DNA of 60,000 nucleotides, taken from positions 808,001 to 868,000 of the forward strand of contig NC_087079.1 of NCBI RefSeq assembly GCF_026151205.1. The letters are read 5' to 3'. Source of the DNA: Bolinopsis microptera (lineage: Eukaryota > Ctenophora > Tentaculata > Lobata > Bolinopsidae). Position 1 is the first letter of the stretch. Each line of letters begins with the position of its first letter. The notes under the pieces were generated by a model. It ran no database searches. It saw only the letters and a list, made by a program, of their open reading frames with translations, and was not told the DNA's origin. Made by a program: the position numbers and the translations under genes. This document shows positions 2,646 through 36,161 of the stretch, in pieces.

Positions 2646-2689
2646 TGGAGTAGATGTGTATATATTTGATTTTTGATATTTCATATTAT

Positions 2690-3508
2690 ATAATATTAAC
2701 CAGCAGATTGTACCGCAAGCCGCAACAAAAGGATATTACCCTGCACAACAACTCTTGCCATCCTGAGTCTGTTAAGATTAATACAGTGAAGAACCTATAT
2801 AGCGAGGCTTGCCGTATCTCATCTGGCCCAGCGGAAAAGGAGCACTCTCTCAGACTCCTTGATGATCTATTACAGAAAAACGGTTACCAGAACCCAAGAC
2901 GTTATTGTAACAGTAGTAATTCTAACAGGCGTCAGAGTGTTGAGGATGATTCCAGGACAGTTCTTAATTTAGATTTTATTTCGGACAGTACTAGCAATAA
3001 GATTAGAAATTATGTAAAGCAGAACAATTTACCTATTAAAGTAAACTTTAAACCTACTTCGAAATTGAGAAATATTTTATGTAGTAACAGACCGTATGAT
3101 AAACGTGTGTGCAGTATTAATTCATGTAAAATTTGTCCTTTGATAGTTTGTAATAAAGATTGTGAAGTGAAGAATGTTGTATATAAGATTAAGTGTAAAT
3201 TATGTGACCAGCTGTACGTTGGAGAAACCAGTAGGAAAGTACATGCTCGTGTAGGAGAACACTTACGTTACGCTACCTACCCTGCTACCCCTTCTAATGT
3301 TAGTCAAGCTTTTGCCATACATTATTCGAGCTGTCATGAGGGGTTAAATCCCAGTTTAGAGGTAGATATTTTAAGAATTGAACCCAATACTGTCAGAAGA
3401 AAGATTTTCGAAGCGATGTTTATTATTAATCTGAACCCTACAATTAACAAGAGAGAAGAACTGGATACTATTAAACGTTTTATCATAGCTAGTACTGAAG
3501 AATTTTAG
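2690..3508 (+). mobile_element. Penelope-like element, 5'-truncated: end of the RT plus GIY-YIG endonuclease
   Basis: The open frame begins in the C-terminal part of a Penelope-type reverse transcriptase (SRLYRKPQQKDITLHNNS, then SCHPESVKINTVKNLYSEA). It continues through a Cys-rich linker (CSINSCKICPLIVCNKDC) into a GIY-YIG nuclease: VVYKIKCKLC, then QLYVGETSRKVHARVGEHL, and a downstream Glu in KIFEAMFI. GIY-YIG placed C-terminal to the RT is the known arrangement of endonuclease-bearing Penelope elements. The RT catalytic core is missing, so this copy cannot be autonomous. The first in-frame ATG is at 2654, but the recognisable part starts near 2690. No flanking repeats or target duplication were identified. 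Confidence 0.85.
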
Positions 3509-11037: not shown

Positions 11038-11140
11038 CAGTTTTGATGTACCTTACTCGCTGTGTTCACTAAAAGTTACCTGTTTTTGAGTTTTGATTCA
11101 CCTTTTTACTACTTTTTTGTTTTAATACTTTCAACACTAC
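11038..11140. repeat. Dispersed repeat, copy 1 (about 42-nt units)
   Basis: TTTTGATGTACCTTACTCGC followed by TTCACTAAAAGTTACC matches copies at 17220-17312 and 19548-19660. The right part (CTACTTTTTTGTTTT) also resembles 19655-19672. It lies just upstream of the LINE 5' region, and its nature is unknown. Confidence 0.6.
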
Positions 11141-11220
11141 TATATAACAAATAATTTGAGGACCCGAAACCGCTGAGCAGTCTCTATCTTGAACTTGCTC
11201 AACCCCATCTCACTTTGAGA

Positions 11221-13194
11221 ATGGTGGAATCCGGTCAAACCGATCAACAGCCAGTGGGGCTGGGTACCTCAAATTATGTCTTTCAGGAAGATAACAAAGG
11301 AAATGACAATGAAAGGCATGATTTGGGGTCCCAGATTAAAGACAATCAGACATCAGCCCCTGCTGCACCTGAATCCTCAGAAGCTGTTGCAGAGAACAGA
11401 ACCCCTGAGGACTGTGAAGCAGACGTAAGCAGTTTTGTTTCATTTTGTACCAATGCTTCAACACCTTTTGATACAATTCTTTTGGCCCATTCAAAAAACT
11501 TACGATCTGAAGTAGACAATATCAAACTGAACTTTTGTAGTACTTTGAAAGTAGAAGTAGACCAATTTGCAACGTTGACCCCTACAATCATCAAAAACTG
11601 TTCAACACTTAACAAATATACCCTGGCAGACGGCCTTCTGTCCCTACTTTCTCTGTCAGAGAAAGTATGTGCAGTAATAGGGGGTAAAAGGTTGTCTATC
11701 GGTGACAACCCCATCGATGAAGCAGCAGTTGCTTCTTCCGTAGCTGCTGACTCCATTTCTGGAAATGCTACCCTCCATGAATCCCTTCAGGCTATTCAAA
11801 ATAGCATTCTTAAGAGAGATAAGGTGCACAATGACACTCTCAAATCAATCAGTGGCCAGCTTAACACCCTGACTCTCTCCATTGATCAGTACATGAAACC
11901 ATCAGATATGTCAACTCCAGATGTACCACGTAACACTGCATTTCCTTCTTTCCCAATAGGCCTTCCTAATATCAATATCGAAAAACCAGATCCTAAGATT
12001 GACTTACATACAGTGCAAAATCCTATAGACACCTCCATTGGTCACATTGAGTCATTCACACCAGATTTTGTTGCCCAAGAACTTTCGGATAAACTCACTG
12101 AATACCTTGACACATTCAGTGAACAGTTTGATGCAAACTCAGAAAGAGGACATGGTGTCATAAGCTTTGGGGATGCATACAACTATCCAGGAGCCAAAGC
12201 TGCAAAACCTATATCCAAAAACATCCCTGAACCCCTAACTGAACTTGTTTCGCTCATCCAGGCCAAATTCCCTGAAAGTGTCATTAATCAGTGTTTAGTG
12301 AATCGCTACCTTGACGAGAAATCAGAGCTGCCGAAGCATTCGGACAACGAAGCCTCACTAATGTTTGATAGTAACATCTTCACTATATCACTAGGCAGTA
12401 CCTGTGATGTTCTATTCAGTAAAATCGAAGGATCTGAAACCAAAACTGTATCAGCTACTGGAAAAAGTCTATATGTTATGAGTAAGCAATCTCAGTCTGT
12501 TTGGCAACATCAAATAGATCAATCTCCAACCACACGTGAGAAAAGATATAGTGTTACATTTCGTTATGTTACATCTAACAACGAAAATGCGACAATAATA
12601 ATAGGAGACTCCAACACCAGATTCTTGAAATTCGGTAGTGGGAAAGGACGTTTCGGTCATAGAATGCCAGGGAAAAGGGTAGAATGTTTTACTATTGATA
12701 TGATTAACCCAAGTTTGTGTGAAGGTTACAGAAATATTTTTATTCATTGTGGAGTAAATGATATTAAGAAACGGAGCTCAAATATCGAGCAGTGTGCCAG
12801 TGATCTCAAGGTAAAACTTGATGATATATGTCGTAAATGTCCATACTCCAAGGTTACCGTTTCGCCAGTACTACCCACTAAGTTTGGCTGGTTGAATGAG
12901 AAAGCATTATATTTTAACAAACTTATATTTCAATATGTTGACATGAACCCAAGGGTGGGAACTCTAGATTTTAATGAATTTGTTGGTGAAGATGGTAAAC
13001 TAGCTGACCAGTTCGGTCGTTTCAAGGATAAAAGTGATGCCATCCATCTTGGGTCTACTGGTATCTTTAAGTTGTCTAGGCTAATAGTGGATAAAATACA
13101 GCGCAATCCAATAGATGGGCGCCAATTTAGTGATATTGCTAGGAGTAAAGTTGGGATGTTCAATTCACGTGTTCAAAGAGCTCCGAAACCATGA
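11221..13194 (+). CDS. LINE ORF1: coiled-coil-like region, AlkB-like 2OG-Fe(II) oxygenase, SGNH esterase
   Basis: 657 residues from the ATG at 11221. Residues 1-75 are acidic and low complexity. About 185-226 is a helical, coiled-coil-like stretch (LQAIQNSILKRDKVHNDTLK). About 305-450 resembles AlkB: CLVNRYLDEKSELPKHSDNE gives the N-x-Y strand and the HxD pair (His373, Asp375), a distal His430 lies in WQHQID, and RYSVTFR supplies the two Arg (442 and 448) that bind 2-oxoglutarate in this family. About 458-630 is an SGNH hydrolase: GDSN (Ser464), GVND (Asn513) and DAIHLG (Asp606, His609). The esterase is known in CR1-type ORF1 proteins; the AlkB domain beside it is unusual. A role in protecting or repairing alkylated template RNA is inference. 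ORF1 overlaps ORF2 by ATGA. Confidence 0.85.
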   Translation: MVESGQTDQQPVGLGTSNYVFQEDNKGNDNERHDLGSQIKDNQTSAPAAPESSEAVAENRTPEDCEADVSSFVSFCTNASTPFDTILLAHSKNLRSEVDNIKLNFCSTLKVEVDQFATLTPTIIKNCSTLNKYTLADGLLSLLSLSEKVCAVIGGKRLSIGDNPIDEAAVASSVAADSISGNATLHESLQAIQNSILKRDKVHNDTLKSISGQLNTLTLSIDQYMKPSDMSTPDVPRNTAFPSFPIGLPNINIEKPDPKIDLHTVQNPIDTSIGHIESFTPDFVAQELSDKLTEYLDTFSEQFDANSERGHGVISFGDAYNYPGAKAAKPISKNIPEPLTELVSLIQAKFPESVINQCLVNRYLDEKSELPKHSDNEASLMFDSNIFTISLGSTCDVLFSKIEGSETKTVSATGKSLYVMSKQSQSVWQHQIDQSPTTREKRYSVTFRYVTSNNENATIIIGDSNTRFLKFGSGKGRFGHRMPGKRVECFTIDMINPSLCEGYRNIFIHCGVNDIKKRSSNIEQCASDLKVKLDDICRKCPYSKVTVSPVLPTKFGWLNEKALYFNKLIFQYVDMNPRVGTLDFNEFVGEDGKLADQFGRFKDKSDAIHLGSTGIFKLSRLIVDKIQRNPIDGRQFSDIARSKVGMFNSRVQRAPKP

Positions 13195-16100
13195 ATAGAA
13201 CAAATATATGTGAGAACTGTATCTGCTGCAGCAAACCTATTCGTGCTGGACACCCATTTATAAATTGCAATAAGTGTGATTGCATCATTCACAAGAGATG
13301 TAAAACACAGGAAAACATTGCCACTTTTAGAGAAAAAACTTACTGCTCAAATTGTATTCAAAATCATGATATAATTCGTTATAATCCATTCTATCAAGCA
13401 CCTCACTTTTCAAACAACGAACTACTTGACAATGAACCTCACGACTATATAGACTCAATAGGTACAATCTCAAAAACTCTTGAGAACTGTCAATCATATT
13501 CTACTAAAAACTTCAACAACCTCATAAAGCAGATTCCTCAAACAACATCAAAGCGCATATTCTCACACTACTTTCGAAATATTGATGGAAATGGTACTAA
13601 CTTTGACAAATTGGCCTTAGAATTAGCCTGCATAGACCACAAATTTTCTGTGATAGGTTTAGCAGAAACAAACATTGATCCCTGTAATAGTCAGCTGTAC
13701 CAAATTAAAGACTATACTTCATGTTACCAAAAACGCTTCGTTTCTAATAAGACACAACAGGTAAAAAGTAAAGGAAGTGGAGTTTCTCTCTACATTCACA
13801 ACTCCTTTAACTTAAGTGTGATTGAAAAGTTATCTGTTTGTACAGAGCAATTTGAGTCCCTATTCGTAACAATAAGTAATGCTCCAGAACCAGTAACAGT
13901 TGGAGTTGTATACCGCTCACCAAGCAATCCACTTGCTAACTTCAATGCACAGTATAAAGAAGTTCTTACTGCACTGAAAGGACATAAAGCATACATATTA
14001 GGGGACTTCAATGTTAACATAACCAATTTATCAGGCCCAGATGAAGATATATTCGAAGAAGTTATTTATAGTCACGGGTTCACGCCCACAATATCCATTC
14101 CCACACACCAAATGCCCCACTGCTCAAAAACGTGCATTGATAACATACACACTAATGACATTCACTCATCAACTATATCTGGAGTAATTCAGGATAGTGC
14201 TTCACATCACCAGCCCATTTTCTGCCTTCAAGTAATGAATTCTGATACTAGTTCGGAACAGAATAAATCACCTGAAAAAACAACCATTTATTATAACTAT
14301 AGTAATGCAAACCTTGATAAGCTCTGTGAAGAAATTGAAAACGACATAGATACATTTTACCACAGATGTGACTCTTTTGAATCCTTCATGGATCTGTTTC
14401 AAGAAAAGATAGATATATCTTGCAAATTGGCTTCACCAAAAACCACCAAACGAAATAATATAACAAATCCATGGATCACAAACGGCCTTATCAACTCTGT
14501 GGAGAAAAAAGCCAGACTTTATTTTGAATGGAAAAAAACAAAAACATTGTTAATTCCAGATGGGGATCTGGAAAGACATAATGTTTACAAGGACTACTCA
14601 AAATATCTTAAAATTGCCATAAAAACTGCCAAAACCAGGTATTATGCTGAAAAGTTTGAGAAAAATAGCCATAACTCCAAAAAAACCTGGCAAATAATTA
14701 ACGAGCTTCGTGGCAAAAAGAAGAATCAGCTAAAAGATGACTTCATTATAGATGGAACTAGAGTAATTTGTAGGCGGACAATTGCAAACAAATTCAATAG
14801 TTACTTTACATCTTTAGCTAGTAATTTAAATGAGAAGGTTTTGTCCGAGAACCAACTGTCTATCCAACCAATGCAATCATTTGTTGAGTTTATGTCGAAA
14901 TCAGTCAACAGTTCAATACATCTAGAAGAAACTCATCCTGAGGAGATTCTTGAAATAATTCAAGAATTCGTTAACGGAAAAGCCAGTGATATACCAATAG
15001 CAGTTATCAAGAAACCGGCTCATCTCTTATCCAACATATTAGCAATTTTGTATAATACATGTATTCAAAAAGGCACGTTCCCATCCATATTCAAAATAGG
15101 CAAAGTAACTCCTATCCATAAAAAAGATAATAAAGAAAATATTGAAAATTATAGACCTGTGTCAATATTGCCAATCTTTGGTAAAATATTTGAAAAAATA
15201 ATATACAAACGGCTTTATACCTTTTTCACTGCTAATGACATTCTCAGTAATGAACAATTTGGTTTTCGAAAAGGCCACTCAACCTCACATGCACTCCACA
15301 AATCAGTTCATTCAATCACAACATCAACATCCAGTGGTAATCATGTTCTAGGAATCTTTATTGACCTAAGCAAAGCTTTTGATACTCTTGACCATGGCAT
15401 TCTCCTGAGGAAACTGGAAAATTATGGGGTTAGAGGTCTAGCTCTAGGACTTCTAAAAAGCTATTTATCCGATAGATCACAGTATGTTTCATTTCTCAAC
15501 ACTACATCAGAGACTATGAATGTAAAATATGGAGTTCCCCAAGGTTCCATACTAGGCCCTCTACTTTTCTTATTATATATGAACGACATAATAAACTGTT
15601 ACAAAGGCGATGAATGCAAATTTGTGCTCTATGCTGATGACACAAATATATTTATCACTGGACCGTCCAAAGAAGCAACATACTTGAAGGCCAATAAAGT
15701 TCTTGATTTCGTATGCAAATTCATGAGAAGTAATCTCTTACATATAAATATGTCTAAATGCTGCTACATACATTTTCTACCTGCATACGAATCTGATGAA
15801 ACCTGCGCCAGGGTTAGGCCGTATGCCAATGAACATGACAAATCACAAGGAATATTTATAAATGGACACAAAATTGTCAAGGTTAGCAACACCAAATTTC
15901 TTGGTGTAGTAATTGATGAAAAACTTAGCTGGGGCCCACATATAGAATATCTAAGAAAAAAAATTAGATCCACTACAGGAGCACTTAACAGGATTAAACA
16001 TTCAGTTCCAGGGGAACACTACCAAAAAATATACTCTGCATTATTGGAATCACATCTTGCTTACGGAATAAGTGTTTGGGGCTCAGCTCTCAAAGACCAA

Positions 16101-16694
16101 CCAAACGATAAGCTGTTCATAACTCAGAAACGTTGTATAAGAATCCTTTTTGGAGACCTAAATGCATACCTCGACAAACATGCCACTTGTGCACGAGCCA
16201 GACCTTATACAAAACAGAGGTTAGGAGCTGCTTTTTTCGAAAAAGAGCACACCAAGCCCATTTTTAATCGACTAAAATTGCTTACTGTTCAAAACTTGTA
16301 CAAATACCACTGTATATCTGAGATATTTCGAATTATGAAATTTCGCACTCCATACTCGTTGTATTGTACTATAGACTCATCAAAACGTGATACAAGCAAT
16401 GTCATAATCCTCCCAAGAAAAACCAACACTTTTCTTTATATAGCCTCCAAATTGTGGAATAGCATACATAAACGGATTCTAAATGAGAATGGGGAAATCC
16501 TCACTACTTCTGTAGCTTTGGTTAAATTACGCTGTAAAAGTATCATCCTGGGATCTCAATCCATCAACAATAATAACACCTGGACTTACCACAACTTTCA
16601 CATCGCCCCTCACTCAATCACAGACCAAACCATTTCATCACTCACTCACCAAATTGCCGACCCAATATCTATTGAAGTGGCGAAAATTTTCTAG
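13191..16694 (+). CDS. LINE ORF2: PHD finger, APE-type endonuclease, reverse transcriptase
   Basis: 1167 residues. A C4HC3 PHD-type finger opens the protein (Cys10, Cys13, Cys26, Cys29, His34, Cys37, Cys52, Cys55). About 125-350 is an APE/EEP endonuclease: LAETN (Glu159), GVVYRSPS, ILGDFNVN (Asp272) and SASHHQP, where the usual SDH reads SHH. RT motifs follow: KVTPIHKK, NYRPVSILP, QFGFRKGHST, IDLSKAFDTLDH, YGVPQGSILGPLLFLLYMND and LYADD (814-818). The C-terminal part has TCARARPYTKQRLG and FEKEHTKPIFN, typical of CR1/L2-supergroup elements in marine invertebrates. The protein nicks target DNA and primes reverse transcription from it. Its start codon overlaps the ORF1 stop codon, so it is probably translated by reinitiation. 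Confidence 0.92.
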   Translation: MNRTNICENCICCSKPIRAGHPFINCNKCDCIIHKRCKTQENIATFREKTYCSNCIQNHDIIRYNPFYQAPHFSNNELLDNEPHDYIDSIGTISKTLENCQSYSTKNFNNLIKQIPQTTSKRIFSHYFRNIDGNGTNFDKLALELACIDHKFSVIGLAETNIDPCNSQLYQIKDYTSCYQKRFVSNKTQQVKSKGSGVSLYIHNSFNLSVIEKLSVCTEQFESLFVTISNAPEPVTVGVVYRSPSNPLANFNAQYKEVLTALKGHKAYILGDFNVNITNLSGPDEDIFEEVIYSHGFTPTISIPTHQMPHCSKTCIDNIHTNDIHSSTISGVIQDSASHHQPIFCLQVMNSDTSSEQNKSPEKTTIYYNYSNANLDKLCEEIENDIDTFYHRCDSFESFMDLFQEKIDISCKLASPKTTKRNNITNPWITNGLINSVEKKARLYFEWKKTKTLLIPDGDLERHNVYKDYSKYLKIAIKTAKTRYYAEKFEKNSHNSKKTWQIINELRGKKKNQLKDDFIIDGTRVICRRTIANKFNSYFTSLASNLNEKVLSENQLSIQPMQSFVEFMSKSVNSSIHLEETHPEEILEIIQEFVNGKASDIPIAVIKKPAHLLSNILAILYNTCIQKGTFPSIFKIGKVTPIHKKDNKENIENYRPVSILPIFGKIFEKIIYKRLYTFFTANDILSNEQFGFRKGHSTSHALHKSVHSITTSTSSGNHVLGIFIDLSKAFDTLDHGILLRKLENYGVRGLALGLLKSYLSDRSQYVSFLNTTSETMNVKYGVPQGSILGPLLFLLYMNDIINCYKGDECKFVLYADDTNIFITGPSKEATYLKANKVLDFVCKFMRSNLLHINMSKCCYIHFLPAYESDETCARVRPYANEHDKSQGIFINGHKIVKVSNTKFLGVVIDEKLSWGPHIEYLRKKIRSTTGALNRIKHSVPGEHYQKIYSALLESHLAYGISVWGSALKDQPNDKLFITQKRCIRILFGDLNAYLDKHATCARARPYTKQRLGAAFFEKEHTKPIFNRLKLLTVQNLYKYHCISEIFRIMKFRTPYSLYCTIDSSKRDTSNVIILPRKTNTFLYIASKLWNSIHKRILNENGEILTTSVALVKLRCKSIILGSQSINNNNTWTYHNFHIAPHSITDQTISSLTHQIADPISIEVAKIF

Positions 16695-16868
16695 ACAAAT
16701 GATATTTCGATATTATTGCTGCAGCAGATACAAATACCAACATTATTATATTCCCAAACGTTTGAACCTTTAAATTAACTAGGAAAGTCAATCCTCAACT
16801 TGACTTTTACTGTTTTAAACAGATATGATGATATTAACTTAATTTATTATTATTATTATTATTATTTT

Positions 16869-17796
16869 TTTTTACATACTCCTTCTTAGTGTGGTGACTT
16901 GGGGTCCATAAATATAACAATACAAGCTGATAAACCAAAAAGAACAACTGGGGTAGGTAGGTAGCCCTGGTGGGTGCGTAAACTTTACGGTCTGCTCTCT
17001 CCAAGATCAGCCTGCTTCTCCATTTTACCGTGAAGCCTAATTTCTAGTTTTTATAAAATATACAATGCAAGTGCAGGTTTACTAATCTTAATCTACTTAA
17101 CAACTCGATAGCCCAGGTCACCATACCCGTAGTATATTCCATGGTAATAGAAGAGCTTTAAAGTTTTTCAAATTGTTGCTATAATTGATTTAAATAAAAA
17201 TTTGTTGTTTTCTTGACCTTACCCACCATGATCAACAAAAGTTACTAGTTTTGACGTACCTTACTCGCCAAGTTCACTAAAAGTTACCAGTCTTGATTAC
17301 CTTCATAACCATGAATCATGATAACTAACAAGAAATGCGGCCGCTTTTCTTTTGTGGATGGCCGCTCAATTTCCCGATCTGTGATGGAGTATTTGATCAT
17401 ATTCCATACCACCTGGGGACCCCAGTCTTCACTGTTTGTAAGCATGCAGATATGGCGGAGTGACAGGCCGAGCGCCGCCCAGTTGATATAATTCCATATT
17501 TAATTTGAAAATCGTGTATATTTCTATGTAACCATATGTTTATTGTTTATGCAACCTGACACGGATCTGTGCAAAATAGTAATACTAACTCAAAATAATA
17601 ATACTATGCTATCAATTAGTCTCTAGCGGGATGCGTACATGGTGAAATTAACAATGTACTTGAACATTTCAGCACCGCGCGCCAACAATTGTTTAATTCA
17701 GATTTTTGCGCAAAATTAATTTGCGCAGGCAGACACGTGGGCGACACGTACGCAGGCATGCACGGTTGCAAAGCTACCATATCCCAAAAAAAACCT
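16869..17796. other. No gene seen; holds dispersed repeat copy 2 at 17220-17312
   Basis: After the LINE tail the sequence is non-coding. At 17220-17312 lie about two units of the CACCATGATCA / AAAAGTTAC / TTTTGACGTACCTTACTCGC repeat seen also at 11038 and 19548. A CCTGGGGACCCCAG palindrome at about 17411 and the GGCGGAGTGACAGGCCGAGC block at about 17455 echo elements near 7.8-7.9 kb. Confidence 0.5.
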
Positions 17797-19685: not shown

Positions 19686-21287
19686 TGGTGGGAGTGCTCT
19701 AATGGTGGGAGAGCTCCTCAAGTATGGTGGGAGTGCGCTATGTGTCCATTACGCCAAAATCATCAACACCTGCTCTGAAGAGAACCTGTTCCTTGACGCT
19801 GTCGGAGAATGTTTCATCACCCCTCTTCAAAAGCCTGGCAAGACTCCTGGTGAACTGAAAAGCCTCAGACCCCTGACATTATGTAACTGTGCTCGTAAGC
19901 TGCTATCCCTCATTACACTCAGGAGAATTGAAGCAAAGGTAGATGCTTACACAGCTACAGGTCCATGGCAAGCTGCCTACAAGCAGAAGAGAAGCTGTGG
20001 AGACCTGGTATGGTGTCACCGTATGTTGATCAGCATCGTAAAAGAAAGAGAGTGGTCTTTCCACAAGATGGGCCTAGACATGTCCAGTGCCTTCGATACT
20101 ATCAGTAGGCAGCCTGTGCTCAACGACGCAGGTTGCACAAGAGATGAGATCAGACTAGTGAGATTCCTCCTGAGCAACACCAAGATCAAGGTGCGAGTCA
20201 ACGACGCTACCTCCCTTGAATTCACCAGCACCAATGGAGGACCCCAGGCCCAAGGTGATAGTGTTTCAGGCCTCTGTTTCACACTCACTCTAGCTGGTGC
20301 CTGCTACCACCTGCATGCCGTGATGCTGCGCCCAACCCCTCCTATAAGCCCTAGCGGCATGCCTGAAGAAGATGCCTACTCTGATGACATCGACTATCTT
20401 GGTGCAGACAAATATGCTCTAGAAGCTCTCCTCCCTATCGCTACTAAGGTGTTCAAAGAGTGGAATCTGAATATTAATGAATCAAAGACAGAGTTTGTAC
20501 ACGTCTACATAGCTGGGAAAGATGAGGTCATGGATGATGGTAAACCCCTTAAAATGAATGAAGAATGGTGCAGTAGCAAGTTGTTGGGTTCTCTGCTAGA
20601 AAGTAGGAAAGATGTCACCAGAAGAATCATGTTAGCCAATGTAGCATTCCAGAACTTCAAGAAGGTCTGGTGCCAGAGTAAGATCCCCCTACAGAAGAAG
20701 CTGATGGTCTATGAGGCCCAAGTAGTATCTATTCTCATGTATAACTCTAGTTGCTGGGGAATGCCTAAATCGTACTGGGACAACTTAGATGCATGTCACC
20801 GTAACCACCTCAGAAAGATCATGAATGTCAGCTGGCCACGCAGTATGATGTCCAAAGATACCCTCCACAAACAGAGTAACTCTACCCCTATGTCTGAGCG
20901 TGCTGAGTTATCTAGGTGGAAGATGCTAGGACACATACTGAGGAGCGATGAAAGATCACCAGCTCAAGCTGCGCTGTGTTTTGCTGTCGAGATGTGTAGT
21001 GAAGTTGGTAGACTCGGGGCTCACAGACGTAACCTCCTACACCACCTGAAGGTTGACCTCTGGAAGCGTTTCATCTTGCTGGAGTCGTATGATGATATTC
21101 TCCATTTGAGAGAACTTGCTAGTGACCGTGGTTATTGGAGTAAATTGTTCAATTTTATACTTGAGTACAAGTCAATTTGACTTTTGGGACATATAATCTT
21201 ACAAAGGATCACGTTTCGGTTCTAAATTATTTTAGGATTGTTGACATTTGTAAGATTGACATGTTTGATAATAATAATAATAATAAC
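19686..21287 (+). mobile_element. 5'-truncated LINE (RT domain) with a 12-bp target-site duplication
   Basis: One open frame (19702-21180, 492 aa) covers the RT from before the fingers to the C-terminus: ITPLQKPGKTPGELKSLRPL, LDMSSAFDTISR, GGPQAQGDSVSGLCF and AYSDDIDYLG (a YSDD version of YADD). It ends with SILMYNSSCWG, RHNHLRK-like NHLRKIMNVSWPR and RWKMLGHILRSDE. There is no endonuclease domain. The 3' end is an (ATA)n tract. TACATCCTCTAA occurs at 19674-19685 and again at 21288-21299, a clean target duplication that fixes both ends. The frame is intact, so the insertion is recent. I would place it near RTE/Proto2-type elements, but clade assignment is uncertain. Confidence 0.88.
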
Positions 21288-26160: not shown

Positions 26161-29100
26161 ATGGCTTGTAAATGTGGATGTGGATGTGCTTGCACTAACT
26201 GTGCCGGAAAGGCTGACTGCTGTGGTGAGTAAAGTAGTGTAGTTTGCTAACAGAGTAACTTTAGTAGCGTTAGTTACTTAGTGTAGTTATTAGTGTAACT
26301 TGCTAATCTTCCTAATCTTCTCAGCTTCTGTATAGTGTATAGTGTATTATCACAATGCTGGCAAGCATAACCGTTGCCCTTATATTCACAACACTATTTA
26401 CCCCCTATACTATTATATCCCCTTTATTGTTTTCCAGGCATTAAGATTCATCGAAAGTAGTTCATCAGGTATATTTAAGTTCAAAACATTCTAATTCAAT
26501 GTTAAAGATGACAGGAATAAGAAATAGTTATGTGGAGGTTTTTAAGAAATTTGCGCAAAATACGCGCCAGCATGTTATACGAAATTAGGTAAAAAACCCA
26601 AAATCGCCATATTCAGGTGCCTTAAAAACCATGTTAAAATTGAGTTAGAGATCTGAAACTTTGCAGGGCGTCTAGACGTTGACCAAATCGAGTGTAAATG
26701 AAATTTCAAGTTTGAGGAGTATCGGGAAGTGGGTTTCCTGGAACCCCTGTTTTACAACAGATTGTCGTGAAGTATAGTATATAATATGTATATATAATAT
26801 AGACGCTTTGGCAGTCAATTGTAGCCTACATTCAAGTATCTGTAGATTCAAAAGTATAAACAATACAGTCATTTCGAACCATAGGTCTTGAAGATAATCG
26901 TTTACACTTCAGTTTACATTACATTAAAAAATAATTTAACGTCATTCTAGAAGCTTACGGCATTCCAGTCAAAATCGTGCAGCTTATACGGCTCATGTAC
27001 GAGAAGACAATGGCCAAAGTCCTAACTCCAGACGGAGAAACTGAATTGTTCGAGATACTTGCAGGTGTGTTACAGGGTGATACCTTAGCACCTTACCTCT
27101 TTGCAATAGTCATCGACTACTGTATGAGGCAAGCCATAGGCGATGATGCGGAGCGACTTGGACTCACCCTCGAACGTAGAAAAAGCAGAAGAGTGGGGCC
27201 CAAGATCATCACCGATGTGGACTTTGCAGATGATATAGCACTTATATCTGAGGACATGGACAAGGCTAACGAGTTCCTGCTCAGAGTAGAATCGGCGGCA
27301 GCAAGCGTGGGACTACACATAAACGAAGGCAAGACCAAGGTCATGACACTGAATATGGAGGATCGATCTAGCGACCTACAAAGTCGATCCGGGGAAGCCA
27401 TAGAAAATGTAGATGATTTCATCTACTTAGGCTCCTGGATTGAGAGCACAGATAGGGAGATAAGGGTTAGAAAGGGAAAAGCGTGGGGTGCCCTACATAG
27501 ACTGAAGGATATCTGGAAATCCAAACTGTCAAAGAGCCTAAAGATTAGATTGTTCATAGCGGCTTGTGAATCAGTACTGCTCTACGGATCAGAAACCTGG
27601 ACACTGACAAAGGCTCAAGAGAAAAGTTTGGACGGGACATACACAAAGATGTTGCGTATGGTGCTGGGTATCTCATGGAAGGACAAGGTCAGCAATATAA
27701 CTTTGTATGGTAGCCTCCCAAGGCTGTCAAACAAGTTACGAAGCAGGAGATTAAAAATGGCGGGACACTGCATCCGACATCCTGAGCTACTTGCCAGTGA
27801 TTTAGTCTTATGGGAACCTACGCACGGTAGAGCACAGCAAGGCCGACCAAGACAAAGCTACTTGTCTATGTTACTGAAGGAAGTTGGGACAAACTCTAAA
27901 GAGGAACTGCGAACCCTGATGCGGGACAGGGATATATGGAGGGGGTTTTCTGGCGTAGATCGGACTTAGCTCCGACATAGTAGTAGTTAACGTCATCATT
28001 AACACTTGATGACGTCATCAAAGTAGGTGTTTTTAAAACTTGATTTTTGACAAAATAACAACTTTTCTAATCGATTTTACACTATTAAGGAGTAATTTTA
28101 TTCAAAATCTGAGGAGATTTTGACCTTAGATAATTGTTCAAGCATTCTGAAAATCTACCGGAAAATTTTCCTACCTTGCTCCTTCATAAAGATATTTGCT
28201 ATTGAAGTTAGTGCTTTTTTGAAGAATAATTTTATAAAAACACAAAAGTTGTGAATTAGTATTCTCTGGTGTTGGGCCATCCCTTGGGTTGTGGAGCTCA
28301 ATTTTGCTTCTGAAAGGTCTAAATTGTGTTATAGGCTAGTTTTAAAGTTAAAAATCAAAAAGTTGCACACGCCCAAAAGTTGCACACGCCCAAATTGATT
28401 TAAAATAGCTAAAATCACTGAAAATTGTTATTTTCATGATTTTTATCAACTTTGGAGTCCCGTTGTGATCCAAGTTCTTTTTAAAATCTTCTGAAACTTT
28501 GGATGCTTATCAAACTATATATCAAATACCACTATGCAAAAAGTTATGGTGATTCAATATTGTATGCGCACGCAACGTCCACTCAAAGTTTGCACGTGCG
28601 AAAGGTGAGAATTTTGCTCATTCGTGATTTCGAATATATTCTGCTTTCCCACGATATTTAAATGGCATTATATATGAATTAAATGCCAACTTGAATGAGT
28701 AAAAAGTACCATTTTTTTAAAAATCTCAACACTTATTTTTACTTCGGACATTCCAACAGCCACATTGTTACACAAGTGTGTAACCAGCCAATTACAGGAA
28801 GCCGAAGGATTCAATTATACATTAGGCCAGTGACGGTTAAGGTAGTGTGTACCATACTTTCTTCGCCCGAGACTTTGCTGCAATGGGCAGCTCCTCATTT
28901 AACCCTCACACCCGATTTCTCGAGTATTTGGCTGAGTGGACCGGGGGGCTGCATAGACAACTCAGGATCCTTAGCTGAGTGTCGACGACGCTCACCCCAC
29001 GGCTAGTGACAGAGTCGGGAATCGAACCTGGTACCTCAAGCAATACCAGGCGGATTAACCAACTGAGCCACTAAACCATATTCAGTGTGTTATCGACAGA

Positions 29101-29693: not shown

Positions 29694-32322
29694 GTGTGTA
29701 GTGTGTAGTGTGTACTACAGTAGTTATAGTAGTGTGTACTACAGTAGTTATAGTAGTGTGTACTATAGTAGTTATAGTAGTGTGTACTATAGTAGTTATA
29801 GTAGTGTGTACTATAGTAGTTATAGTAGTGTGTACTATAGTAGTTATAGTAGTGTGTACTACAGTAGTTATAGTAGTGTGTACTACAGTAGTTATAGTAG
29901 TGTGTACTATAGTAGTTATAGTAGTGTGTACTATAGTAGTTATAGTAGTGTGTACTACAGTAGTTATAGTAGTGTGTACTATAGTAGTTATAGTAGTGTG
30001 TACTACAGTAGTTATAGTAGTTATAGTAGTGTGTACTACAGTAGTTATAGTAGTGTGTACTATAGTAGTTATAGTAGTGTGTACTATAGTAGTTGTAGTA
30101 GTGTGTACTATAGTAGTTATAGTAGTGTGTACTATAGTAGTTATAGTAGTGTGTACTACAGTAGTTATAGTAGTGTGTACTATAGTAGTTATAGTAGTGT
30201 GTACTATAGTAGTTATAGTAGTGTGTACTATAGTAGTTATAGTAGTGTGTACTATAGTAGTTGTAGTAGTGTGTACTACAGTAGTTATAGTAGTGTGTAC
30301 TATAGTAGTTATAGTAGTGTGTAGTGTGTAGTGTGTACTACAGTAGTTATAGTAGTGTGTACTATAGTAGTTATAGTAGTGTGTACTATAGTAGTTATAG
30401 TAGTGTGTACTATAGTAGTTATAGTAGTGTGTACTATAGTAGTTATAGTAGTGTGTACTATAGTAGTTATAGTAGTGTGTACTACAGTAGTTATAGTAGT
30501 GTGTACTATAGTAGTTATAGTAGTGTGTACTATAGTAGTTATAGTAGTGTGTACTATAGTAGTTATAGTAGTGTGTACTATAGTAGTTATAGTAGTGTGT
30601 ACTACAGTAGTTATAGTAGTGTGTACTATAGTAGTTATAGTAGTGTGTACTATAGTAGTTATAGTAGTGTGTACTACAGTAGTTATAGTAGTGTGTACTA
30701 TAGTAGTTATAGTAGTGTGTACTATAGTAGTTATAGTAGTGTGTACTACAGTAGTTATAGTAGTGTGTACTATAGTAGTTATAGTAGTGTGTACTATAGT
30801 AGTTATAGTAGTGTGTACTACAGTAGTTATAGTAGTGTGTACTATAGTAGTTATAGTAGTGTGTACTATAGTAGTTATAGTAGTGTGTACTACAGTAGTT
30901 ATAGTAGTGTGTACTACAGTAGTTATAGTAGTGTGTACTACAGTAGTTATAGTAGTGTGTACTACAGTAGTTATAGTAGTGTGTACTATAGTAGTTATAG
31001 TAGTGTGTACTACAGTAGTTATAGTAGTGTGTACTATAGTAGTTATAGTAGTGTGTACTATAGTAGTTATAGTAGTGTGTACTACAGTAGTTATAGTAGT
31101 GTGTAATGTGTAGTGTGTACTACAGTAGTTATAGTAGTGTGTACTATAGTAGTTATAGTAGTGTGTACTATAGTAGTTATAGTAGTGTGTACTATAGTAG
31201 TTATAGTAGTGTGTACTATAGTAGTTATAGTAGTGTGTACTATAGTAGTTATAGTAGTGTGTACTATAGTAGTTATAGTAGTGTGTACTATAGTAGTTAT
31301 AGTAGTGTGTACTATAGTAGTTATAGTAGTGTGTACTATAGTAGTTATAGTAGTGTGTACTATAGTAGTTATAGTAGTGTGTACTATAGTAGTTATAGTA
31401 GTGTGTACTATAGTAGTTATAGTAGTGTGTACTATAGTAGTTATAGTAGTGTGTACTATAGTAGTTATAGTAGTGTGTACTACAGTAGTTATAGTAGTGT
31501 GTACTATAGTAGTTATAGTAGTGTGTACTATAGTAGTTATAGTAGTGTGTACTACAGTAGTTATAGTAGTGTGTACTATAGTAGTTATAGTAGTGTGTAC
31601 TATAGTAGTTATAGTAGTGTGTACTATAGTAGTTATAGTAGTGTGTACTATAGTAGTTATAGTAGTGTGTACTACAGTAGTTATAGTAGTGTGTACTATA
31701 GTAGTTATAGTAGTGTGTACTATAGTAGTTATAGTAGTGTGTACTACAGTAGTTATAGTAGTGTGTACTACAGTAGTTATAGTAGTGTGTACTACAGTAG
31801 TTATAGTAGTGTGTACTACAGTAGTTATAGTAGTGTGTACTATAGTAGTTATAGTAGTGTGTACTATAGTAGTTATAGTAGTGTGTACTATAGTAGTTAT
31901 AGTAGTGTGTACTACAGTAGTTATAGTAGTGTGTACTACAGTAGTTATAGTAGTGTGTACTACAGTAGTTATAGTAGTGTGTACTACAGTAGTTATAGTA
32001 GTGTGTACTATAGTAGTTATAGTAGTGTGTACTATAGTAGTTATAGTAGTGTGTACTATAGTAGTTATAGTAGTGTGTACTACAGTAGTTATAGTAGTGT
32101 GTACTATAGTAGTTATAGTAGTGTGTACTATAGTAGTTATAGTAGTGTGTACTATAGTAGTTATAGTTGTGTGTACTATAGTAGTTGTAGTAGTGTGTAC
32201 TATAGTAGTTATAGTAGTTGTAGTAGTGTGTACTATATTAGTTATAGTAGTGTGTACTATAGTAGTTATAGTAGTGTGTACTATAGTAGTTGTAGTAGTG
32301 TTTACTACAGTAGTTTAGATTT
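29694..32322. repeat. 24-bp satellite, about 108 copies, 2.6 kb
   Basis: The unit is AGTGTGTACTAYAGTAGTTA plus TAGT, with Y as the main variable site. Two short interruptions (near 30323 and 31105) read GTGTAGTGTGTAGTG or similar, dividing the array into three blocks. Because 24 is a multiple of three, two forward frames stay open (SVYYSSYS and VCTIVVIV). The array starts 14 bp after the exon 2 stop codon of metallothionein copy 1. Confidence 0.97.
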
Positions 32323-33158
32323 ATTGTAGGAACCACCGTCACACTGCTCTGCGGTATTTCAATAATTGTGTGGTAAATTGGCTCAACTACATTAGAAAGC
32401 AAGCTGTAGACTTCAGAGGTCATTTTTAATTGACAATTAGATAATATTATGGTTACTATGGTTACTGTGATATCATGGTGATAATGTAGTATTCTATTTT
32501 AGTACATATCTAGTTAGCGGTAGGTTTGTTGCTTCGTGGTAGCTGTACAATGTGTTGCGTGGTTACTATAGTTACTATGGTTACTATGGTAATTACATTG
32601 TGTTGCGTGCTCTTGTTTCCCATAAGCTCTAACACTATATCCAGGATAGAAGAAATGCCAGCTGTAAGAGTGAAATCTCGTGATTACAGCGATTACTGAG
32701 GATGTTGTGCATTAAACTTCTGTAGAAAAAAAAACAGTTGAACTGTGATATATATTTTTCTTTTGAAATCTTTTGAAGCCGACTAAATGTTTGAAAAATA
32801 AAATGAAAATGAAATTTGTTAGCTATATTTGTTTTTGAAATTGTATGAATGATATATTATTATAATAACAATATTAAGTGTGACTCGTCACGGTACTTAC
32901 CTATTATTACTCGTTGTTAGCCGAACTATAACATTTGCTTGTTTTAATGTTTCTATCATATTATAATACTCTGACAACTTGTTTAAACTGTTTAAAATCA
33001 TTGCTGAACTGAGAATAATATCCGGTTATGTTGTAATAGTGAAATAATGTATTGTATGATCTTACAGAGACAAGCACAACTATGAGATTTATTTTGTGTT
33101 TGTTAAACCTAACTAATTGTTATTTATATAGCGATAAGCGTGCTGTTACCTGAACAAA
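32323..33158. other. No gene seen between satellite and metallothionein copy 2
   Basis: It includes GTTACTATGGTTACTATGGT motifs at 32445-32590 and an ATTAAA at about 32712. That ATTAAA might be the displaced 3' UTR of copy 1. The last about 50 bp should be the leader of copy 2 (TATATAG|CGATAAGCGTG). Confidence 0.4.
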
Positions 33159-33420
33159 ATGGCTTGTAAATGTGGATGTGGATGTGTTTGTAAGGGCTGC
33201 GCTGGAACAGCTGCCTGCTGTGGTGAGTAAAGTAGTGTAGTTTGCTAACAGAGTAACTTTAGTAGCGTTAGATATAACTAATTTAGTTATTTAAATTTCA
33301 TGATAAATTTAATGAAAAAGGCTTATAATTAAGTTTACAGAAATGACTTTGTTTCTGTTTCACATATTGCTCAACTCTCATGCTTCAGGAAAGAAGTGTT
33401 GTGCCAAGTGTAAATGTTAG
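33159..33420 (+). CDS. Metallothionein-like protein, copy 2
   Basis: Exon 1 is 33159-33222 and exon 2 is 33389-33420. The product is 31 residues with the same 12 Cys as copy 1. It has Val10, Lys12, Gly13 and Ala27 (start MACKCGCGCVCKGCAGTAAC, end GKKCCAKCKC). The 166-bp intron is the shortest of the array and probably the ancestral form; its first 45 bases match copy 1. ATTAAA, about 50 nt past the stop (33471), is a likely polyadenylation signal shared with copies 3 and 4. Confidence 0.92.
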
Positions 33421-33776
33421 ACGATGAGGTTATTAAGGCTGATACTGACAGAAGATGGCCTGCATGGAGTATTAAACTAATGTTAAATTAAAAACTCTTA
33501 CTAATTTGATCTACTAAAATTATAATAAATGACGTAATTATCTAATGTAATATATAATTTCTAATGTAATATATAATATGATATAATGAACTGATTTTAG
33601 TTTATCTTAAATTTCAAACTGCGTATTCTTATTCTGTCGAGAAGTTAATTACAAAAGTTGTAAATACCTGAAATAATCAGACATAATGTGTTTTGTTTAT
33701 AGTATACAGACTGAGATTAATATATTATATTTTTACCTAACCTCCCCAATTTTCATTAGCGTTATACCTGAACAAA

Positions 33777-34653
33777 ATGGCTTGTAAATGTGGATGTGGA
33801 TGTGTTTGTAAGGGCTGCGCTGGAACAACTGCCTGCTGTGGTGAGTAACACTGTTAAACTGTTTTAATGTACCAATGGGGGGGGGGGGGGGGCACTTTCC
33901 TAATGGGGGAAGGGGGGGGGGGGGGGCACTTTCCTAATGGGGGGGGGGGGGGGGGGGTTGGTGCACTTTCCTTAAGGGAGGGGGCACTTTCCTAATGGGG
34001 GGGGGGGGGGGGGGGGGTTGGTGCACTTTCTTTATGGAGGGGGGCACTTTCCTAGTGGGGGGGGGTTGGTGTACTTTCCTTTAGGGGGGGGGGGGGGCAC
34101 TTTCCTAATGGGGGGGGGGGGGGGGCACTTTCCTAATGGGGGGGCACTTTCCTAATGGGGGGGGGGGGGGGTTGGTGCACTTTCTTTATGGAGGGGGGCA
34201 CTTTCCTAATGGGGGGGGGGGGCACTTTCTCAATGGGGGGGGGGGGGGGGGTTGGTGCACTTTCCTTATGGGGGGGGCACTTTCCTAATGGGGGGGGGGG
34301 CACTTTCCTAATGGGGGGGGGGGGGGCACTTTCATTATGGGGGGGGGGGGCACTTTCATTATGGGGGGGGGGGGCACTTTCCTAATGGGGGGGGGGGGGC
34401 ACTTTCCTAATGTTTTAAACTACAGACGTCAACTTTATTACTGATGCTGATTTAGTGAAAGATAGCAAGATCTCCTGTAATAAAGGTGCAGCATATAAAA
34501 GTAACCTGATTGATTGAGGAGCACTACCCGGAGGCACTACTTGGCACTAACCTTAATACGTCTCCAATAATGGGTGAATGTATAGATAGACTTCTCAAGC
34601 TCACTGTTCTATTATTTACAGGAAAGAAGTGTTGTGCTAAGTGCAAATGTTAG
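33777..34653 (+). CDS. Metallothionein-like protein, copy 3
   Basis: Exon 1 is 33777-33840 and exon 2 is 34622-34653. The product is identical to copy 2 except Thr18 for Ala18. Its intron carries a poly-G minisatellite (33880-34411) and then about 200 bp shared with copy 4. Flanks upstream and downstream are nearly identical to those of copies 4 and 5, so these genes arose by recent tandem duplication of a unit of about 1.25 kb. Confidence 0.92.
33880..34411 (+). repeat. Poly-G minisatellite in the intron of metallothionein copy 3
   Basis: Units are G tracts of about 7-24 bases joined by CACTTTCCTAATG or close variants. The G-rich strand is the coding strand. Exact tract lengths are likely unreliable in any assembly. 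Confidence 0.95.
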
Positions 34654-35015
34654 ACGATGAGGTTATTAAGGCTGATACTGACAGAAGATGGCCTGCATGG
34701 AGTATTAAACTAATGTTAAATTAAAAACTCTTACTAATCTTATCTTAATCTACTAAAATTATAATAAATGACGTAATTATCTAATGTAATATATAATTTC
34801 TTATGTAATATATAATATGATATAATGAACTGATTTAAGTTTATCTTAAATTTCAAACTGCGTATTCTTATTCTGTCGAGAAGTTAATTACAAAAGTTGT
34901 AAATACCTGAAATAATCAGACATAATGTGTTTTGTTTATAGTATACAGACTGAGATTAATATATTATATGTGTATCTAACTTCCCCAATTTTCATTAGCG
35001 TTATACCTGAACAAA

Positions 35016-35966
35016 ATGGCTTGTAAATGTGGATGTGGATGTGTTTGTAAGGGCTGCGCTGGAACAACTGCCTGCTGTGGTGAGTAACACCGTTAAACTA
35101 TTTTAATGTACTAATGGGGGGGGGGGGGGCACTTTCCTTAAGGGGGGGGGGGGGGGGGCACTTTCCTAATGGGGGGGGGGGGGGCACTTTCTTAATGGGG
35201 GGGGGGCACTTTCCTTATGGGGGGGGGGTAGTTTCCTTATGGGGGGGGGGGGGGGCAATTTCCTAATGGGGGGGGGGGGGGGGGGGGGGCACTTTCCTAA
35301 TGGGGGGGGGGGGGCACTTTCCTTAATGGGGGGGGGCACTTTCCTAATGGGGGGGGGGGCACTTTCCTAATGGGGGGAGGCACTTTCCTAATGGGGGGGC
35401 ACTTTCCTTATGGGGGGGGCCGGGGGGGGGGGCACTTTCCTAATGGGGGGGGGGCAGTTTCCTAATGGGGGGGGGGCACTTTCCTTATGGGGGGGGGGGC
35501 ACTTTCCTTATGGGGGGGCAGTTTCCTTATGGGGGGGGCACTTTCCTAATGGGGGGGGGGGGCACTTTCCTAATGGGGGGGGGGGGCACTTTCCTTAAGG
35601 GGGGGGGGGGGGCACTTTCCTTAAGGGGGGGGGGGGCACTTTCCTAATGGGGGGGGGGGCACTTTCCTAATGGGGGGGGGGGGGCACTTTCATTATTGGG
35701 GGGGGGGGGGGGCACTTTCCTAATGTTTTAAACTGCAGACGTCAACTTTATTACTGATGTTGATTTAGTGAAAGATAGCAAGATCTCCTGTAATAAAGGT
35801 GCAGCATATAAAAGTAACCTGATTGATTGAGGAGCACTACCCGGAGGCATTACTCCGCACTAACCTTAATACGTCTCCAATAATGGGTGAATGTATAGAT
35901 AGACTTCTCAAGCTCACTGTTCTATTATTTACAGGAAAGAAGTGTTGTGCTAAGTGCAAATGTTAG
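35016..35966 (+). CDS. Metallothionein-like protein, copy 4
   Basis: Exon 1 is 35016-35079 and exon 2 is 35935-35966. The predicted protein is identical to copy 3. The intron has a poly-G minisatellite (35115-35722) followed by the same 3' intron part as copy 3. Leader and upstream block are shared with copies 3 and 5. Confidence 0.92.
35115..35722 (+). repeat. Poly-G minisatellite in the intron of metallothionein copy 4
   Basis: Same theme as in copy 3: G tracts joined by CACTTTCC(T/TA)AATG or CACTTTCCTTATG, but with a different number and order of units. The array has therefore changed since the gene duplication. Confidence 0.95.
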
Positions 35967-36161
35967 ACGATGAGGTTATTAAGGCTGATACTGACAGAAG
36001 ATGGCCTGCATGGAGTATTAAACTAGTGTTAAATTAAAAACTCTTACTAATCTTATCTTAATCTACTAAAATTATAATAAATGACGTAATTATCTAATGT
36101 AATATATAATTTCTAATGTAATATATAATATGATATAATGAACTGATTTTAGTTTATCTTA

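Follow-up and report, generated by a model that had tools for sequence, protein, structure and literature searches.

The ORF1 of a long interspersed nuclear element (LINE) from the ctenophore Bolinopsis microptera carries two enzyme domains in one open reading frame (ORF), an AlkB-type 2-oxoglutarate (2OG)- and Fe(II)-dependent dioxygenase and an SGNH esterase, and is followed by an ORF2 with endonuclease and reverse transcriptase (RT). The element lies within a stretch of 60,000 nucleotides (NC_087079.1, positions 808,001 to 868,000; hereafter the window, numbered from its first letter), and the same AlkB-SGNH pair occurs in several diverged LINE families of the genome. A sequence-only reading of the window had described a single uninterrupted ORF with an HxD pair, a distal His, an RYSVTFR stretch and SGNH residues, and this description is confirmed: the frame runs from an ATG at 11221 to a stop at 13192-13194 (657 residues), a script located H373, H430, R442, R448, S464, N513, D606 and H609 at their places, and D375 lies two residues past H373. 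The label "CR1-type", given in the same reading, appears to fit the anatomy of the element, which comprises the following features.

11120 to 17216, forward strand: whole element, about 6.1 kb, with ends common to other copies
11120 to 11220, forward strand: 5' untranslated region (UTR) of about 100 bases, from the alignment of copies at the 5' end
11221 to 13194, forward strand: ORF1, 657 amino acids, with an N-terminal part that has no Pfam match, then AlkB, then SGNH (ORF, Pfam, script)
12037 to 12576, forward strand: AlkB-type 2OG-Fe(II) dioxygenase domain, ORF1 residues 273-452 (Pfam, profile against PDB, AlphaFold, Foldseek/VIA)
12337 to 12345, forward strand: HSD with the Fe ligands H373 and D375, kept in 29/29 covering rows of L001-L030
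12508 to 12510, forward strand: Fe ligand H430 (script location, row conservation)
12544 to 12564, forward strand: RYSVTFR with R442 and R448, presumably the 2OG-binding arginines by analogy with AlkB (script location, row conservation)
12577 to 13140, forward strand: SGNH hydrolase (esterase) domain with S464, N513, D606 and H609 (profile against PDB; weak in Pfam, E=0.019; residues by script)
13191 to 13194, forward strand: ATGA, in which the stop of ORF1 and the start of ORF2 overlap (script)
13191 to 16694, forward strand: ORF2, 1167 amino acids, with a Cys-rich PHD-like N-terminus, an APE-type endonuclease and a reverse transcriptase
15114 to 15914, forward strand: reverse transcriptase domain RVT_1, E=5e-40 (Pfam)

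The ORF1 domain is, with near certainty, an AlkB-type dioxygenase. Residues 318-448 match PF13532 (2OG-FeII_Oxy_2) with E=4e-16 and 60.3 bits, well over the cut-off of 31.2, which bears out the AlkB-like oxygenase first proposed from the letters. In sequence alignment H373, D375 and H430 line up with the iron ligands of ALKBH3 and ALKBH2, and R442 and R448 form the R-x5-R pair of the AlkB/ALKBH proteins. The domain had been placed at residues 300-450; the domain itself stands, while its start moves to near residue 270 in the alignment. An AlphaFold model of the domain (predicted local distance difference test, pLDDT, 78) predicts a double-stranded beta-helix with AlkB topology and is matched to ALKBH2/3 by Foldseek/VIA, the fold that the sequence-only reading had named as decisive. 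A profile of the element AlkBs run against PDB recovers ALKBH3/2 at 1.3e-31 and ALKBH5, the eraser of N6-methyladenosine (m6A), at 8e-4. This difference bears on a counter-defence, in which the AlkB domain would erase a host m6A mark from element RNA and so escape silencing or decay. An AlkB of an orchid Ty3/Gypsy element, which demethylates m6A RNA in vitro, has been proposed to act in this way (PMC9289625). Human L1, however, is reported to be helped by m6A and suppressed by ALKBH5 (PMC7873242), and simple removal of m6A is therefore unlikely to be a benefit; with the profile favoring ALKBH3/2 as well, the counter-defence is rather improbable.

Conservation of the catalytic residues was followed in the 30 rows L001-L030, among which L013 and L014 overlap and repeat one ORF. 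Besides the first two iron ligands, H430, R442, R448 and S464 are unchanged in 28/28 covering rows, N513 in 27/27, and D606 and H609 in 26/26; because a motif served to excise the rows in A1 and A4, the invariance in those alignments is partly by construction. The motif is present at every locus of L031-L066, and the Fe ligands and both arginines are also kept, by eye, in 7/7 further stretches. Ratios of nonsynonymous to synonymous substitution (dN/dS; Nei-Gojobori, seven comparisons) were calculated separately for the N-terminal, AlkB and SGNH parts and were, in that order, 0.182, 0.123 and 0.144 for L018-L028; 0.175, 0.121 and 0.144 for L021-L029; 0.224, 0.038 and 0.103 for L018-L021; and 0.197, 0.119 and saturated for L061-L053. 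These ratios show purifying selection between diverged copies. An AlkB domain that served solely as a non-catalytic RNA- or DNA-binding module, keeping the fold only, would sit poorly with low dN/dS between diverged copies and with Fe ligands and arginines retained in every covering row and further stretch, and is quite unlikely.

The second domain had likewise been read as an SGNH esterase in a LINE ORF1, and this identification holds through profile comparison: PF13472 matches the window ORF1 under the cut-off (E=0.019), but a profile built from the SGNH domains of nine lineages (alignment A6, lineages A, B, C1, C3, E, F, F2, G and G2) finds the PAF-acetylhydrolase-like structure 2hsj at 2e-12 and 4c1b at 5.5e-8. 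The latter is the ORF1 esterase of the zebrafish LINE ZfL2-1, the triad of which is given in the same report (PMC3905857). An SGNH domain with S-N-D/H defines the type IV ORF1, and the window ORF1 has S464, N513, D606 and H609.

The element is a young, non-LTR (long terminal repeat) retrotransposon, and intact copies have transposed repeatedly. In the genome searched (264.65 Mb, 232 contigs), six of at least 67 scored ORF1 matches (930 candidates), the window's included, cover the full length (residues 1-657) with no stop inside; they lie on six contigs and are 99-100% identical, and the ORF1 is for this reason beyond chance. Nine copies, the window's among them, have a common 5' sequence that extends to a point no more than about ten bases from 11120, past which they diverge. 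At the 3' end, searched with window positions 16700-17700 (40 scored of 950 candidates; 97-100% identity), 35/39 other matches stop at 17216 (query base 517) and the remaining four at query bases 515, 515, 519 and 522. From these shared ends follows an element of about 6.1 kb. An artefact, in which a LINE merely neighbours a host AlkB gene or a misjoined piece of the assembly, is already refuted by this copy structure and carries a negligible probability, given the one reading frame, the six complete ORF1s, each on a different contig, the common ends and the same pair in other families. Target-site duplications were not obvious in an inspection by eye alone. A similar stretch is seen by eye in both flanks of the element (11038-11093 and 17240-17300), as if it lay inside a dispersed or tandem repeat.

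ORF2 of the window copy is ordered as endonuclease and then RT, the endonuclease families scoring under the Pfam cut-off. Pfam gave no RNase H match in ORF2 and no integrase match in ORF1 or ORF2, and Rfam gave no match in the window. A search with mitochondrial COX1, aimed at the identity of the host, gave none either. The PHD-like N-terminus of the window ORF2 was seen by eye; for the relative L065, Pfam reports PHD in ORF2 at E=0.013.

The AlkB-like part is not confined to one copy, an outcome that the sequence-only reading had held would undo its proposal; other copies and other families carry it. The genome holds at least 151 matches to PF13532 (150 of 587 candidates scored), and every match listed is above the cut-off. 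The sequences read were 30 loci from these matches and 13 stretches taken by position (L061 and L066 repeat places among the 30); three of the 30, L031, L032 and L033, are host-like by eye. The AlkB lineages are A (the window), B (L015-L030), C1 (L061), C2 (L053), C3 (L062), D (L047, L064), E (L044), F (L065), F2 (L153), G (L063), G2 (L151), H (L040, other strand) and P (L066). By eye an SGNH-like stretch occupies the same frame as AlkB in 13/13 lineages, cut short in H, and downstream of ORF1 there is an ORF2, or the beginning of one, in A, B, C1, C2, C3, D, E, F and G, the nine for which enough downstream DNA was read. In a class with 43-44% ORF2 identity, one stretch of 521 bases (L158) contains, upstream, the C-terminal end of an AlkB domain and the initial block of SGNH, the AlkB frame being broken further up. 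In P (L066) the order is SGNH and then AlkB, both within a Pro/Ser-rich frame of great length, and the 8 kb read, mostly upstream, showed no RT. Family P also includes L035, L045, L049, L052, L054, L059 and L060, with repeat-rich frames of up to 3388 codons and several close copies. In family B (L015-L030) the 5' UTR measures about 600 bases, as against about 100 in the window's family. At L033 an AlkB frame (1063-1950) groups with the host-like L032, and an SGNH frame follows about 700 bases on (2662-3438); L033 is possibly a host gene with an AlkB and SGNH pair.

In the AlkB tree the 14 element rows (A, B, C, E, F, G, P) form one clade with support 99/100, the other rows being three host-like, six bacterial (from a search with L032) and two of family D. 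H was too short and was left out of the final tree; in another tree it grouped with A and B. The element AlkBs are not inside the host ALKBH2/3-like group in the tree, as orthologues of ALKBH2 or ALKBH3 would be. A second capture in family D was considered and not upheld: the tree puts D with host-like and bacterial rows, but the approximately unbiased (AU) test does not reject its union with the other elements (p 0.615). The AlkB of L032 has relatives in bacteria (best 80 of 243) and none in viral contigs. No relatives turned up in viral contigs when the query was the whole ORF1 or either of two small AlkB alignments, or in one scan of prokaryotes. RT identity to family A is 50% for F, 40% for G, 34% for C1 and 26% for D, and against R2 and L1 in PDB the RT of family D scores above the ORF2 of A. 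C1 and C3 are joined in both the RT and the AlkB trees.

ORF1 has also been exchanged between families. L024 (contig C6) and L025 (contig C19) combine a family B ORF1 with a family A ORF2, the switch falling at the ORF1/ORF2 junction: the last 600 bases of ORF1 are 92-100% identical to L018 per 50 bases, and ORF2 is 94-100% identical to the window. L025 extends to the shared 5' end of family B, whereas L024 ends about 410 bases short, in unrelated sequence. Since the two are identical across the 288 bases compared and yet L024 ends in unrelated sequence, the chimera has transposed. A locus on C9 looks like the same chimera by position and identity. Family B does not share the family A ORF2 throughout, a candidate explanation that was rejected: among 16 B loci only L024 and L025 are chimeric, with the third on C9 by position. 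The remaining B loci have ORF2s about 55-64% identical to the window's, L015 showing 63 and 70% over other parts. L053 has a C2 ORF1 (AlkB 67% identical to C1), and its ORF2 start is 91-100% identical to C1 (L061) over about 400 bases and 60% thereafter, a pattern that suggests conversion or recombination.

LINE ORF1 proteins are RNA-binding proteins and in some cases esterases. N1-methyladenosine (m1A) and 3-methylcytidine (m3C) block reverse transcriptase, and ALKBH2/3 act on both. The structural part of the sequence-only reading holds, while its functional part, a demethylase that protects or repairs the RNA or cDNA of the element, is a conjecture. The mechanism we favor, to which we give about an even chance, is that the ORF1 AlkB strips RT-blocking m1A and m3C from the ribonucleoprotein (RNP)-bound template or from cDNA. 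The ORF1 protein, by likeness to other LINE ORF1 proteins, would coat the element RNA; its AlkB domain, nearest to ALKBH3 and ALKBH2, would rid the RNA template, and perhaps the exposed cDNA too, of m1A and m3C in a reaction with Fe(II), O2 and 2-oxoglutarate. Once lesions on the base-pairing face are gone, target-primed reverse transcription could finish. The SGNH domain may tether the RNP to membranes or lipids, by analogy with the proposal for ZfL2-1.

Several points weigh against this reading. A likeness to ALKBH3/2 does not by itself determine the substrate; the element clade lies outside the host ALKBH2/3-like genes, and its substrate may have changed. The alignment given to the structure model consisted of bacterial AlkBs (31 rows) and is biased toward an AlkB-like result. 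For the SGNH domain, Pfam at E<=0.1 has matches in A, B, C1, C3, E, G and P, seven of the nine lineages given to it, each match falling below the curated cut-off, and gives no match in the other two, D and F; a single-sequence model of the domain is uninformative (pLDDT 38). As to selection, L018-L028 and L021-L029 compare the same two subfamilies, the window-L018 comparison is saturated, window-L006 has almost no changes, and in window-L009, where there are about two synonymous changes, the ratio of the AlkB part is 0.547 and exceeds those of the other two parts (0.402 and 0.208).

Action in trans has also been weighed, with the ORF1 protein demethylating host target DNA at the nick, mRNA or tRNA and thereby altering defence or integration. 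ALKBH2 and AlkB, among the structures matched, act on DNA, and the PHD-like fingers that precede AlkB in ORF1 of L044 (E=5e-4) and L065 (E=0.007) could steer the protein to chromatin. These PHD matches are, however, under the Pfam cut-off and the window ORF1 has none at E<=1, and we regard trans action as improbable. A wider reading is tentative and less likely than not: AlkB-SGNH would be, in this animal, a standard, ancient ORF1 type across several LINE clades, exchanged whole where ORF1 meets ORF2 and acquired by two or more captures (the second in family D), and would act as a general, retrotransposon-encoded demethylase that offsets host RNA/DNA methylation, damage-derived or defensive, in reverse transcription.

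Judged by titles and the start of abstracts, no paper among those listed in searches of the open-access literature describes AlkB in a LINE ORF1; subscription papers and Repbase were outside this scope. The nearest known case is the AlkB of the Ty3/Gypsy element of the orchid Phalaenopsis, also a retrotransposon-encoded AlkB-type 2OG dioxygenase with kept cofactor residues (PMC9289625). The orchid element differs in being an LTR element in which a separate extra ORF encodes a protein called ALKBH5-like and active on m6A, whereas the window element is non-LTR, its AlkB lies inside ORF1 beside SGNH, and it is ALKBH3/2-like by profile. Beyond the orchid case, the passages available from open-access texts on AlkB and retrotransposons concern ordinary ALKBH2 genes. 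CR1/L2 LINEs with a type IV esterase ORF1 (ZfL2-1, 4c1b) share the two ORFs, the SGNH ORF1 and the endonuclease-RT ORF2; by contrast, passages of a survey list five ORF1 types without AlkB and place the esterase ORF1 in vertebrate groups only, and the word "dioxygenase" is absent from its text (PMC4120745). The replicase AlkBs of RNA viruses (Alphaflexi-, Betaflexi- and Closteroviridae) likewise belong to parasitic RNA-copying elements with an AlkB of their own, and fold matches to them occur in BFVD, but they are part of the replicase polyprotein of an RNA virus and not of a retrotransposon ORF1. Cellular ALKBH2 and ALKBH3 share the fold and the Fe and 2OG residues, whereas the element AlkBs stand in their own clade and are fused to SGNH.

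A conserved demethylase in a LINE ORF1 would allow retrotransposon defence against methyl lesions or marks on its own RNA to be tested directly, a question that RNA viruses and the LTR elements of orchids have already prompted. AlkB is an enzyme added to the list of ORF1 modules, and the swapping of ORF1 between families has yielded chimeras that transpose.

Elsewhere in the window, two further RT fragments (19702-21180 and 26977-27969) are about 20% and 26% identical to the element RT. The region 30000-36000 has a strong GC skew (up to 0.64) and long frames that overlap from one register to the next, resembling a low-complexity repeat. At 53000-54058, on the reverse strand, and indicative of an animal host, an uninterrupted frame encodes a rhodopsin-type G protein-coupled receptor (Pfam 7tm_1, E=1e-18).
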